Of a DNA stretch of 50,260 bases, positions 7,342 through 10,519 are shown one piece after another. A model generated the notes under the pieces. That model made no database searches. It was not told where the DNA came from and saw nothing but the letters and a program-made list of their open reading frames with translations. Made by a program: the position numbers and the translations under genes. The DNA is from Caenispirillum bisanense (lineage in GTDB: Bacteria; Pseudomonadota; Alphaproteobacteria; Rhodospirillales; UBA2165): assembly GCA_945877815.1 (NCBI GenBank), contig CAMDWJ010000029.1:1-50260 (forward strand), written 5' to 3'. Each line of letters begins with the position of its first letter. The first letter of the stretch is position 1.

Positions 7342-8448
7342 ATGGCCACCACGAAGATGCTGCCCTCGCGCGCCGACCATGTCGGCAGTTTCCTGCGCCC
7401 GAAGGCCGTCGCGGAGGCACGCGAGAAATGGCGCGCCGGCACCCTGCCCGCGAGCCAGCTCAAAACCATCGAGGACGAAGCGATCCGCGGCGTCGTCGCC
7501 ATGCAGGAGAGTGTCGGTCTCAAGGCCGTCACCGACGGCGAGTTCCGCCGCGATTATTGGCACAACGACTACATGGACGGTTTCGAAGGTCTCGACATGC
7601 GCGACGAGACCTATGGCATGGCCTTCCAAGGCGGCATTTCGGTCGGCACGCCCTATGTGTCGAAGAAGCTCGGCGATCACGACGGCGCGATGCATCCGCA
7701 TTTCAGCTTCCTCAAATCGGTCGCCAAACAGACGGCGAAGTTCTGCATCCCCGCGCCCGGCATGGTGTATATGCGCGGCGGCCGCAAGGCGGTGAACGAG
7801 ACCGCCTATCCCGATCTCGACAAGTTCTGGGACGATCTCATCGGCGCCTATCAACGCGACGTGGCGGCAATGGAAAATCTCGGCTGCACCTATCTGCAGT
7901 TCGACGATACCAGCATGGCCTATATGTGCGACGCGAAGTTCCGCGAACAGGTCAAGGCGCGCGGCGACGATCCCGACAAGATGGTCGAGCGTTTCGCCAA
8001 GGCGACCAGCCAGGCCATTTCCAAACGCTCGACGAACCTGCTCGTCACCACCCATACCTGCCGCGGCAATTTCAAAAGCACCTGGATGATGCAGGGCGGC
8101 TACGAACCGGTGGCCGAGATCATGTTCGCCAATCTCGATCTCGATGCCTTCTTCATGGAGTTCGACGACGACCGCGCCGGCGGCTTCGAACCCTTGCGCT
8201 TCTTTCCCAAGAACAAGACGCTCGTGCTCGGCCTCGTCACCACCAAGGTCGGCGCGCTCGAGAGCAAGGACACGATCAAGCGGCGCATCGACGACGCTGC
8301 CAAATACGTGCCGCTGGAGCGCCTGGCACTCAGCCCTCAATGCGGGTTCGCGTCGACCCATCACGGCAACGCGGTGAGCGAGGAGGACCAGCGCCGCAAG
8401 CTCGACCTCGTCGTCGAGATCGCCGACGAAGTGTGGGGCGGCAAGTAA
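7342..8448 (+). CDS. MetE-like cobalamin-independent methyltransferase (catalytic-domain only)
   Basis: A 368-residue protein matching the C-terminal catalytic domain of cobalamin-independent methionine synthase, in the stand-alone form seen in YxjG/YxjH-type proteins. It lacks the N-terminal MetE half. The three zinc ligands are present: H238 and C240 in THTCRGN and C334 in LSPQCGF. The acidic MEFDDDRAGGFEPL loop and LGLVTTKVGALES are also typical. Such proteins transfer a methyl group to homocysteine or a related thiol; the donor cannot be told from sequence. The start has a clear ribosome site (GGGAGGAACATC). It is followed by a glutathione transferase 43 bp away, suggesting a shared transcript and perhaps a role in thiol or sulfur compound metabolism (inference). 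Confidence 0.85.
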   Translation: MATTKMLPSRADHVGSFLRPKAVAEAREKWRAGTLPASQLKTIEDEAIRGVVAMQESVGLKAVTDGEFRRDYWHNDYMDGFEGLDMRDETYGMAFQGGISVGTPYVSKKLGDHDGAMHPHFSFLKSVAKQTAKFCIPAPGMVYMRGGRKAVNETAYPDLDKFWDDLIGAYQRDVAAMENLGCTYLQFDDTSMAYMCDAKFREQVKARGDDPDKMVERFAKATSQAISKRSTNLLVTTHTCRGNFKSTWMMQGGYEPVAEIMFANLDLDAFFMEFDDDRAGGFEPLRFFPKNKTLVLGLVTTKVGALESKDTIKRRIDDAAKYVPLERLALSPQCGFASTHHGNAVSEEDQRRKLDLVVEIADEVWGGK

Positions 8449-8488
8449 TCATAAGTATTCATAAGTAGTCATATGTAATCAGGAGTAC
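8439..8488 (+). repeat. Tandem decamer repeat spanning a stop codon and a Shine-Dalgarno
   Basis: Between the two genes lie TCATAAGTAT, TCATAAGTAG, TCATATGTAA and TCAGGAGTAC, four consecutive 10-bp units (8449-8488). They are preceded by CGGCAAGTAA (8439-8448), a more diverged unit that carries the stop codon of the MetE-like gene. The fourth unit contains AGGAG, the apparent ribosome-binding site of the glutathione transferase at 8492. Confidence 0.75.
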
Positions 8489-8491
8489 GCC

Positions 8492-9199
8492 ATGGCAGAC
8501 CTATCCTCATTCGCGATCACCAAACGCTGGCCGGCCGAACATCCCGACCTCCTGCAGCTTTATTCCGTGCCGACGCCCAACGGCGTGAAGGTCTCGATCA
8601 TGCTCGAAGAGATCGGGCTTCCGTACGAAGTGCACAGCCTCAAATTCGGCGCGGAGGGGACCTCGGCCCCCGAATTCCTGTCGCTCAATCCCAACGGCAA
8701 GATCCCGGCGATCCTCGATCCCGACGGGCCGGGCGGCAAACCGCTCGCTTTATTCGAATCGGGCGCGATCCTCATCTATCTCGCCGACAAGACCGGCAAG
8801 CTTCAGCCCAAGGACGCCGCCGGCCGCTACGAGACGATGCAGTGGATCTTTTTCCAGATGGCGGGGATCGGGCCGATGTTCGGTCAGGTCGGCTTTTTCC
8901 ATAAATTCGCCGGCAAGGATTTCGAGGACAAGCGGCCGCGCGACCGCTACGTCGCCGAATCCAAACGCCTGCTCGGCGTTCTCGAAACCCGTCTCGAGGG
9001 CCGCCTCTGGATCATGGGAAACGATTATTCGATTGCCGATATCTCGATGATCGGCTGGGTGCGTAGCCTGGTCGGCTTCTACGGCGCCGGCGATCTGGTC
9101 GAATATGCGAGCCTCAAGCGCGTGCCCGATTGGCTGGAGCGCTGTCTGGCACGTCCCGCCGTGCAGCGCGGCTTGGATATTCCGAAAAGGCCGGGCTAG
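8492..9199 (+). CDS. Glutathione S-transferase, YfcG/YghU (nu-class) type
   Basis: 235 residues, cytoplasmic. The N-terminal thioredoxin fold carries TPNGVKVSIMLEE (about residues 28-40), the Thr-Pro-Asn-Gly signature of nu-class transferases such as YfcG and YghU, in which Thr and Asn rather than Tyr/Ser/Cys bind the glutathione sulfur. SLNPNGKIPAI and LFESGAILIYLA follow, the latter being the gamma-glutamyl binding site. The C-terminal helical domain ends in MGNDYSIADISMIGWV. Nu-class enzymes reduce disulfides and organic peroxides using two glutathiones; that activity is inferred from the family. AGGAG sits 7 nt before the ATG. A 16-nt palindrome overlaps the stop codon. Confidence 0.9.
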   Translation: MADLSSFAITKRWPAEHPDLLQLYSVPTPNGVKVSIMLEEIGLPYEVHSLKFGAEGTSAPEFLSLNPNGKIPAILDPDGPGGKPLALFESGAILIYLADKTGKLQPKDAAGRYETMQWIFFQMAGIGPMFGQVGFFHKFAGKDFEDKRPRDRYVAESKRLLGVLETRLEGRLWIMGNDYSIADISMIGWVRSLVGFYGAGDLVEYASLKRVPDWLERCLARPAVQRGLDIPKRPG

Positions 9200-9205
9200 C
9201 CCGGC
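9190..9205 (+). terminator. Perfect GC palindrome over the gst stop codon
   Basis: GCCGGGCTAGCCCGGC is a perfect 16-nt palindrome whose centre is the TAG stop of the glutathione transferase. It could form a short GC hairpin that slows or ends transcription. No U-run follows, so an intrinsic terminator is not proved. Confidence 0.35.
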
Positions 9206-9245
9206 GGGCCGAAACGCGCCTGAATGCATAGACGGCGCGAAGATC

Positions 9246-9417
9246 TGTGCATTTCTAGGCATTTCTGGGCATCGCGGCGAAAAAGCCAATGATTTCAATC
9301 ATCGGCGCAGGGACCCTGTGTGCATGATCTTCGCATCGTCTAGGCATGATCTAGGCATTTTGTGTGCATGATCTTCGCATTTGCTGTGCATCGAGTGTGC
9401 ATTTCCGGGCATCCGGC
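9246..9417. repeat. Helically phased GCAT repeat array (10-bp and 11-bp blocks)
   Basis: Block A (9246-9275) holds three 10-bp units: TGTGCATTTC, TAGGCATTTC, TGGGCATCGC. Block B (9319-9417) has GCAT at 9322, 9333, 9344, 9355, 9366, 9377, 9388, 9399 and 9409, so seven steps of exactly 11 bp and one of 10 bp. Block B units include TGTGCATGATC (twice), TTCGCATCGTC, TAGGCATGATC, TAGGCATTTTG, TTCGCATTTGC, TGTGCATCGAG and TGTGCATTTCC. A 20-nt word is repeated exactly at 9317-9336 and 9361-9380. The last GCAT of block A and the first of block B are 53 bp apart, close to five helical turns. No protein frame fits an 11-bp period. Everything outside GCAT and the leading T has diverged. It may be a cooperative protein-binding array or an old minisatellite. 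Confidence 0.85.
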
Positions 9418-9612
9418 CCCGCTTGAACCCCGATGACGCAAGTCGGCGGGCTCACGCCTCAATGAGGCGCCGCGCCTAGCAAAATTCGTGAACGGGATCG
9501 TGCGAACAGCCTAGCCGATTAGGCCGGGCCAAGTCAAGAATTTAATTCTAATTAATCGACGATATATTATAATAGCGCGAAGGCCGCGCGGGCCGGATAG
9601 TAGAAGCCAGCT
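9418..9612. other. Non-coding stretch with short hairpins and an AT-rich block
   Basis: No gene is visible in 9200-9612. After the GCAT array come small inverted repeats (GCCTCAATGAGGC near 9455-9470; GCCTAGCCGATTAGGC near 9510-9525) and then an AT-rich block (9536-9575) with the perfect palindrome GAATTTAATTC and TATAAT hexamers on both strands (plus 9568-9573, minus 9571-9566). No convincing -35 box lies at the right distance from either. A GC hairpin (GGCCGCGCGGGCC, about 9582-9594) lies just downstream of the small minus-strand ORF. The region may hold a promoter or a structured RNA, but neither can be demonstrated from sequence. Confidence 0.4.
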
Positions 9613-9747
9613 CTATTTGGAGAAGAGTTTCCGCAGGAACGACATGACCGGTCCCGGTGGGTTCTCAGCGAGGATCTGCGCCGGGGTTCTTTCCACATAT
9701 TTATCGCCGAGACAGAGCTTGCGGTCCGCTTCGCTGAGTGCAGCCAT
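9613..9747 (-). CDS. Small 44-residue protein, unknown function
   Basis: A short ORF encoding 44 residues, starting MAALSEADRKLCLGDKYVER and ending MSFLRKLFSK. It has a good ribosome site, AGGAG seven bases before the ATG. The residues are balanced in composition, unlike the Arg/Pro-rich shadow frames of GC-rich DNA. The middle part (TPAQILAENPPGP) is followed by a short, basic, possibly amphipathic C-terminal helix. There is no signal peptide or membrane segment. I do not recognise a family. It lies 140 bp downstream of the DUF892 gene on the same strand, so it may share its transcript. It also neighbours the GCAT array. Chance occurrence cannot be excluded at this length. Confidence 0.5.
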   Translation of the reverse strand: MAALSEADRKLCLGDKYVERTPAQILAENPPGPVMSFLRKLFSK

Positions 9748-9887
9748 TTATCGTCTCCTGGGGGAGCCCATGAAGTTTGCGCTGCTTGTCGGCGCTCCCG
9801 TGCCTGAGGAAGCTAAGGCGCATTCCGGCGCGCGCGCAAGGAATTGATGGCGGAGTTAGCCCAGACCGATCGTTGAAACGCCGACGC

Positions 9888-10436
9888 CTAACCGATACCG
9901 GCGCGCTTCGCACTATTCGCCAATCCGTCGCGCGCGGCGTGCGGATTAATCTCGCCTTCGGCCATGTCGGTCATTTCCTCGATGGCCTCGCTTTTCTCGT
10001 CGAGGCTGCGGCGCAGCATCAGAGCGATCTCGCGTTCGCCCAGAGTTTCGGCGTAGCCGACGAGGCTGCCATAGCCGGCATCGCCGTAATGCGAGAGTTT
10101 CTGGATCGCGGCCAGCAACACCGCATCGCGCAATGGGCCGGCCGCGCCTCTGTCGGCGCCGGTCAGCGCGGCCTCCAACAGGCACGTCATTCCATCGGAG
10201 CGTTTCTCGGACGGCTCGACCTTGAGGATCGCAAAGGCCTTCTCCAGGCGCTCGATCCGTTCCTGCGTATATTCGACACCTTCCTCGCACAAGCGCTTGA
10301 GGGACTGGGTGCGCACCGCGCGGGCCAAGGCGGGCCAGGTCGTCAGCAAAAGGCGGTCCGAGCCGAGCGCATCGGCCAATTCCGCAATCAAGATGTCGCG
10401 GAGATTCATATGAGGCGTCGGGTTTGAATGGGGCAT
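9888..10436 (-). CDS. DUF892 (YciE/YciF ferritin-like) protein with altered metal ligands
   Basis: A 182-residue helical protein of the DUF892 family, whose members (YciE, YciF) are four-helix ferritin-like proteins linked to stress responses. Recognisable segments are MNLRDILIAELADAL, the VEYTQERIERLEKAF helix, and AAIQKLSHYGDAGYGSL. In the family as I remember it the last motif reads roughly QKVEHYEIAxYGTL, with both glutamates and the histidine bound to iron. Here the glutamates are Ser and Gly, and the early Glu and the His of the second helix appear as Asp and Gln. The fold is kept but ferroxidase activity is doubtful. Translation may start at the ATG of MPHSNP (10436) or at MNLRDI, nine codons later; neither has a clear ribosome site. 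Confidence 0.8.
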   Translation of the reverse strand: MPHSNPTPHMNLRDILIAELADALGSDRLLLTTWPALARAVRTQSLKRLCEEGVEYTQERIERLEKAFAILKVEPSEKRSDGMTCLLEAALTGADRGAAGPLRDAVLLAAIQKLSHYGDAGYGSLVGYAETLGEREIALMLRRSLDEKSEAIEEMTDMAEGEINPHAARDGLANSAKRAGIG

Positions 10437-10519
10437 GCAAATCCAACCGCCGGTCGCCGCGAAGGCTCCCTCTTCACGCGAATTTCATGAAAGCCCGTTA
10501 TCGGACGCGGGTTCGTCGG

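Follow-up and report, generated by a model that had tools for sequence, protein, structure and literature searches.

Dispersed arrays of 11-bp units in Caenispirillum bisanense: candidate binding sites for a small-terminase-like protein

A phased array between the gst and DUF892 genes

We analysed a stretch of 50,260 nucleotides from Caenispirillum bisanense (the window), in which an element composed of short phased repeats is located between a glutathione S-transferase gene (gst) and a DUF892 gene that converge on it. The features of the element and its surroundings are as follows:

8492..9199, plus strand: flanking gst gene, convergent with the promoter-like sequence (context)
9215..9239, no strand assigned: inverted repeat CGCGCC...GGCGCG, its loop containing GCAT, at the far end of the element and just beyond the gst stop codon
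9244..9272, minus strand: 10-bp units ATGCCCAGAA, ATGCCTAGAA and ATGCACAGA
9273..9314, no strand assigned: spacer, giving a 53-bp step from the last 11-bp unit to the first 10-bp unit
9315..9412, minus strand: main array, a 10-bp unit (9403-9412) and eight 11-bp units of type ATGCNNAGANN, read from 9412 to 9315
9508..9537, minus strand: promoter-like TTGACT (9532-9537), 18 bp, TAGGCT (9508-9513), reading into the array; predicted by eye from the consensus
9888..10436, minus strand: flanking DUF892 gene (context)

The first-pass annotation had described this region as a helically phased GCAT array in two blocks, and the spacing that it gave is correct. GCAT occurs at 9322, 9333, 9344, 9355, 9366, 9377, 9388 and 9399, which makes seven 11-bp steps, and once more after a 10-bp step at 9409; the second block, at 9249, 9259 and 9269, has 10-bp steps, and the gap between the blocks (9269 to 9322) is 53 bp, as claimed. 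The tetramer is found 13 times in 9200-9430 against a mean of 3.5 in 2000 dinucleotide shuffles, none of which produced seven 11-bp GCAT steps (shuffle maximum 2), and among all 256 tetramers at periods of 5-39 the longest phased run in the window is that of GCAT (8; next 5). The phased array is exact and is not a product of chance. The accompanying view that the copies share one face of the helix is true only approximately, since 11-bp steps drift by about 17 degrees per unit relative to 10.5 bp per turn, and the unit proposed at that stage, TNKGCATNNNN, is the complement of ATGCNNAGANN, which we prefer as the unit in view of the minus-strand direction of the promoter-like sequence.

Within the spacer lies an imperfect palindrome, CCAATGATTTCAATCATCGG (9286-9305), and the promoter-like sequence is adjoined by GAATTAAATTC, of a GAATTA..TTC type that is present in 7 of 12 copies. 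Hairpins like that at 9215..9239, with different stems, were seen by eye in several other copies. A coding origin of the array was considered and rejected, as an 11-nt unit shifts the reading frame and, by eye, several copies have no open frame in common. Separately, about four copies of AAGTAATCAT at 10-bp spacing occupy 8443-8481, just before the gst start codon.

Four word families in the source genome

The genome from which the window derives (G000; 3.98 Mb in 84 contigs) contains 37 matches to three GCAT copies at 11-bp spacing, compared with none for the reversed control; the C14 match, being unlike the others, was left out. A sequence-only model, R1, was built from 11 cores, with the truncated C12 copy left out of the alignment, and its search of G000 added C32 and C23 to the copies and revealed a second word family that keeps this layout, while a third and a fourth word family emerged from an order-wide search. 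From the R1 list of 24 we dropped C28:15015, as well as C47:17302 and C2:120890, which are parts beside listed copies. Families were assigned first by eye and with R1 and were then checked by 5-mers; C17b was placed in family 4 on its words. The final list comprises 25 elements:

Family 1, ATGCNNAGANN: 14 elements, one of them truncated, including the window element
Family 2, ATGTCGAGANN mixed with CGGCCTATGAA-like units: 6 elements
Family 3, ATGTCGATNNN: 3 elements
Family 4, ATGTAGAGNNN: 2 elements, C10 and C17b

A lag-11 self-match of at least 42/66 gave 10 peaks in the 498 kb of G000 around the elements, all 10 on elements. Three features recur across the 11 family-1 cores: the 11-bp spacing of the units, a step of 53-54 bp starting at the last slot, and a set of two or three 10-bp units; C1a has an extra degenerate slot. 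Counted by eye, an inverted unit fills the last slot in seven of these cores, and GATTTC, most distinct as CGGATTTCCG, lies close to mid-spacer in seven; both are missing in such a form from the window copy. GC skew of the ATG strand is positive at 19 of the 25 elements (16 against 5 when only values beyond 0.01 are counted), a modest bias that may simply track the orientation of genes and that we regard as weak evidence. Two elements, L043 (C12) and L040 (C1b), each follow a Fic-like coding stretch, with an HPFREGNGR motif visible by eye in C12, and their upstream parts are alike, pointing to duplication together with the gene.

Layout is kept while words change

In the congener G001, R1 identified five elements, three of which are orthologous in position to elements of G000, with flank identities of 85, 80 and 78%. 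The units of these three are largely ATGATGAGANN or ATGCTAAGANN in an unchanged layout, and in one other G001 copy the new word is also found in the inverted unit. Changed words in a conserved layout at orthologous loci look like sites that follow a changing reader rather than like slipping repeats. Selection on phase, which the first-pass annotation had preferred to slippage, is supported by the register, the long step and the 10-bp units that recur among cores with differing letters, and by the three orthologous loci. The array is neither absent nor random in close relatives, nor is it an unstable minisatellite without conserved phase.

Across the order, five CAT copies at 11-bp spacing were matched in 13 of 317 genomes. 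Besides G000 and G001 these are seven members of the genus g50 (G070, G071, G074, G075, G077, G078 and G079), which belongs to family f27 of the same order as G000, and four other genomes with one or two matches each; in the three of these four that were inspected no like layout was noticed, though G297 carries the 11-bp units described in the last section. Patterns based on ATG undercount because some words linked to terS (see below) lack ATG, as in G078 C88; G073 and G076 score 0 in them, yet carry terS-linked arrays. By eye, unit number differs at seemingly orthologous loci of G077, G078 and G079.

Some arrays are linked to small-terminase-like genes

Outside the window, a gene for a small-terminase-like protein (terS; C22, 29359-29922) has an array with the family-1 word directly downstream. 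Its product matches PF03592 (Terminase_2) with 48 bits and its G001 counterpart with 52.5 bits (cutoff 26.1), and the G001 array orthologous to that of C22 has a changed word, the recognition-helix region of the linked TerS being different as well. Matches to terS were present in 13 of 18 chosen genomes and gave 43 match rows, of which the 30 with loci formed the tested set. With arrays called at a lag-11 self-match of at least 40/66, 14 of the 30 terS-like loci possess one: 14 of the 25 from the two genera g1 and g50, and none of the five from other genera. The maxima start between -7 and +80 bp from the terS stop codon. At the same 30 loci a score of 40/66 was never reached at lags 9, 10 or 13 and was reached in three loci at lag 12; in 15 unrelated control loci (45.7 kb) the lag-11 maximum was 36. 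Most of the 11 g1/g50 loci below the line are without an array even by eye. The family-2 array of G000 C39, missed by the lag-11 test, and that of G071 C135, with a score of 37, are degenerate by eye. No array accompanies the terS of G001 C2 or that of G000 C3, the latter being outside the 30 tested loci, and the search of G070, a genome 79% complete, gave no terS.

Three of the G000 families have a terS-linked copy, namely family 1 (C22), family 2 (C39) and family 3 (C36); no partner terS was found for family 4 (C10 and C17b). When each dispersed array, terS-linked copies excluded, was assigned by 5-mers to the nearest terS-linked array, family 1 went to C22 (13/13), family 2 to C39 (5/5) and family 3 to C36 (2/2). 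The window array, whose main part has a lag-11 score of 41, has a 5-mer cosine of 0.78 with the C22 array and of 0.11 and 0.12 with the other two, and word identity with the C22 array is its sole tie to a terS. In G071, G074, G077 and G079 the dispersed arrays carry, as judged by eye, the word of one of the genome's own terS-linked arrays, whereas in G075 and G078 their words are unlike those of the linked arrays examined, which counts against TerS as the reader. In a class-level search at 1e-8, terS was matched in 16 of 288 genomes, and none of 26 class terS loci outside G000 has an 11-bp array (lag-11 at most 35; other lags up to 49 in some). PF03592-like genes of G576 (L360, L364) and G386 (L356) have GAACN7GAAC about 100-150 bp ahead of the match, and L360 also has TCCTGACATA-like 10-bp repeats; G576 is a possible further carrier of a terS-array system.

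An AlphaFold model of TerS (A2, 15 rows; pLDDT 83.6) gave SF6 TerS as its best PDB match (4zc3; Z 11.3, 0.8 Å over 56 residues, 39% identity), then 2cmp and 3zqq, both SF6 TerS, and then PaP3 6w7t (Z 8.2, rmsd 8.8 over 95), with the Bacillus phage protein 2ao9 and NV1 TerS among further matches. In BFVD, every named match in the first 24 is a terminase small subunit. The model also predicts a second helical region. Judged by its sequence profile and predicted helix-turn-helix (HTH) fold, the partner is a small terminase. One of the variable parts of TerS is the recognition-helix region (AGYxxxSAxNQGYRLL). Array similarity correlates with that of the DNA-binding domain (Mantel test, rho 0.35, p 0.002), yet no more strongly for the recognition region than for the remainder of the domain, and the correlation may therefore reflect phylogeny or shared descent; together with the GC skew it is retained as weak evidence only.

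Searches for TerL (PF03237, PF03354) and HK97-type capsid (PF05065), of the kind that would lie near a phage pac, found no gene of these three families in G000 or G001, whereas Caulobacter, among the controls, matched all three. This speaks against a resident packaging machine in the two genomes and is compatible both with redirection of the packaging of a visiting phage and with a domesticated regulatory role. In g50, G077 has a capsid match, and in G078 a TerL stands next to another terS-like gene (C211), whose position suggests an ordinary prophage. The neighbours of terS look housekeeping-like by eye; among the ORFs read around 12 terS loci no integrase, regulator or replication genes were noticed, and in G074 C43 a transposase-like ORF lies about 2.8-3.5 kb from terS.

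Predicted promoters and LexA boxes

A perfect GTTCN7GTTC was found upstream of 9 of the 14 array-linked terS genes, in two of the nine ahead of a second possible start, compared with 8 of 1750 random 330-bp windows of G000. As GAACATAATTGGAAC, a box of the same type, stands ahead of the recA of G000 itself, we take this to be the LexA box here. By this measure the nine genes are putatively under LexA control, as in phage satellites; operon I of the SaPIs, which is needed for packaging, is reportedly LexA-controlled (Ubeda 2007, cited in PMC6739421). GTTCN7GTTC or a one-letter variant is also near the promoter of many arrays. A perfect box lies within 330 bp upstream of 4 of the 25 G000 elements, to be compared with 8 of the 1750 control windows; when a single mismatch is allowed the figures become 13 of 25 and 330 of 1750. 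The window copy has no perfect box, and its one-mismatch match lies away from the promoter. In g50, TGCTCTTTGACATTGTGAA or a variant of it, presumably an rrn-type boxA, often comes after the promoter. Arrays of G070 (L240, L241) lie upstream of polA-like and aspS-like genes without a perfect LexA box, and some copies may act in 5' regions.

Possible roles of the arrays

The multi-site DNA-binding array proposed in the first-pass annotation gains indirect backing from the terS-array pairing and the word matching, both drawn from sequence; what had escaped that reading was that the array belongs to a wider family, that LexA boxes occur and that a small terminase is the probable partner. We consider it probable that the window array is one of 14 family-1 candidate binding arrays for the C22 small-terminase-like protein. 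DNA damage, through the loss of LexA, would lead to production of TerS, an oligomer of which would bind the terS-linked and the dispersed copies, one HTH per 11-bp unit. An array of eight or nine units, spaced by a turn of the helix, would fit an oligomer that places one HTH on each, and phage TerS rings are described as having 8-12 subunits, mostly nine (PMC9611059). Two published descriptions weigh against such binding: the SF6 TerS DNA-binding domain alone is reported to have little sequence specificity (PMC4737164), and HK97 TerS is described as reading DNA threaded through its ring (PMC11331095).

Several known systems resemble parts of this arrangement. SPP1 pac is described as three sets of direct repeats spanning the terS promoters and the beginning of the gene (PMC4737164), and in SPP1 and SF6, as apparently here, a small terminase with an N-terminal HTH goes with a direct-repeat site adjoining terS. 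The repeat site beside its own terS, in the manner of a phage pac, is seen in the sequence of the 14 array-linked loci. Here, however, terS stands by itself in a bacterial chromosome, and its site, at the stop codon, has eight or nine strict 11-bp units and exists in many unlinked copies. Satellite TerS of SaPIs and other PICIs is said to recognise its own pac and to direct packaging (PMC6092414). These islands, with their own terS, own pac and LexA control, are the nearest working model for an arrangement that we know from sequence; they differ in that no integrase or replication gene was noticed near terS here, the neighbours are housekeeping-like and G000 has 25 elements. Pseudo-pac sites, packaging-start-like sequences scattered on the chromosomes of P22 hosts (PMC11226127), merely resemble the phage site, whereas the present arrays are elaborate, kept in place and matched to a chromosomal terS. 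RcGTA is likewise a phage-derived device for packaging host DNA in alphaproteobacteria; one account describes its TerS as apparently without an HTH domain and its packaging start sites as not known (PMC6854486). G000 differs in having neither a PF03237 TerL nor a PF05065 capsid. The parC centromere of R1 plasmids consists of clusters of 11-bp direct repeats (ParR iterons) bound by an oligomer; no segregation genes were noticed beside the present elements, and the partner is terS.

If TerS binds the arrays, they may act as pac-like sites on the host chromosome through which packaging is interfered with or redirected in the manner of a phage satellite, which we rate at somewhat less than an even chance; purpose is the least certain part of the reading. 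Taken as a whole, the proposal that a phage TerS has been co-opted for SOS-triggered, chromosome-wide marking, each orphan TerS reading its own 11-bp word, with dozens of matching arrays serving as decoy or deliberate packaging starts that steer an active phage motor, is speculative and rather unlikely. A domesticated role in regulation or DNA architecture is, given binding, nearly as likely as redirection, and as an overall account it is plausible while falling short of even. TerS would here wrap the arrays and shape or silence DNA, or halt transcription after damage, with no packaging involved. The absence of PF03237, PF03354 and PF05065 from G000 and G001, set against the Caulobacter control, would fit such a role, as would the housekeeping-like genes around terS, the retention of elements at orthologous loci and the ATG-strand skew, modest as this is and open to explanation by gene orientation; the arrays are, however, downstream of promoters rather than on them, and by eye no neighbour recurs among the flanking ORFs listed except at orthologous loci.

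Four further explanations are less likely. A short MITE-like mobile family, of which the terS-bearing copies would be the full form and the array an end or origin, is improbable: subfamilies share unit order at unrelated loci, copies occur with and without terS and the upstream part is similar in many, but no terminal inverted repeats or target duplications were noticed, the elements are without a transposase, spacers are strongly diverged and three of five congener copies are orthologous. We give still less credence to a functional untranslated RNA, a LexA-controlled transcript whose tandem 11-nt AUG units would bind protein or RNA. Most copies examined have a predicted promoter directed into the array, many have LexA boxes, and in g50 the boxA-like TGCTCTTTGACATTGTGAA is just downstream of the promoter; yet RNAalifold on the 11 cores gave five pairs, none with both sides changed, and no consensus structure, Rfam gave nothing for 8400-10500 of the window at E values up to 1, the conserved word of G070 is apparently opposite in sense to the promoter, and the terS pairing is left unexplained. 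With the structure and Rfam results an unstructured RNA would still be compatible. PhoB/OmpR boxes are direct repeats at 10-11 bp. An operator for a response regulator of this type would share that spacing with the present arrays and is nonetheless very unlikely, as there are eight or nine units in 25 copies with no common regulated gene noticed, and the word follows the linked terS. A neutral minisatellite, to which Tandem Repeats Finder periods of 11 and 22 and the unit number varying by eye among apparent orthologous loci of G077, G078 and G079 might point, is scarcely credible and already contradicted by 11 copies with one layout and divergent letters, by orthologous conservation with changed words and by the terS pairing.

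The candidate TerS-array pairs would, if correctly read, suggest that cells have put a phage packaging protein to use. Steering a phage motor onto host DNA would harm the phage, disseminate host genes or do both, and the fast turnover of words would then reflect conflict with phage terminases. Many natural pairs with differing words and a unit at every helical turn, three of them in one genome, make specificity, register and subunit number directly testable. No report of such arrays, or of an orphan terS with them, was found in searches of an open-access library; TerS, repeats beside terS and LexA-controlled satellite terS are known already, and what is new relative to that library is the dispersed, word-matched candidate arrays for an orphan chromosomal terS.

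Similar arrays elsewhere

Five CGTAGACGCAT-like units spaced at 11 bp occur in G297 (L210), which belongs to another genus of the order. Class-wide, 10 of 386 genomes were matched, G000 included; the nine others, three of which were read, were judged to be minisatellites, short arrays or chance. G440, also of this class, has at contig ends (C4:51049-51165 and the start of C28) a perfect 11-bp tandem of ATGCACAGGTT, apparently a plain minisatellite. An SOS box combined with five ATG copies was matched in 12 stretches of genome contigs, five from g50 members (MAG contigs) and seven from Bacteroidota, the latter because the SOS box itself has period 11; the Bacteroidota contigs L261, L262, L265, L266, L268 and L270 carry 11-bp tandem arrays of varied units.

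Word-specific scans of viral contigs gave 0 and 0 matches, and blastn of 420 bases against phages and plasmids gave no match. At least 120 viral-contig stretches have five GCAT copies at 11 bp, and 80 of these were examined. Among the 15 with ORFs listed, most arrays are within genes that we take to be phage replication initiators; the rest of the 80 include coding arrays or pure minisatellites. In L086, L095, L097, L104, L134, L136 and other viral stretches, GCATTGCGTTC at 11-bp spacing adjoins stretches with a 5-7-bp period, mostly inside initiator-like phage genes of this kind, and these arrays resemble origin iterons with an unwinding stretch.
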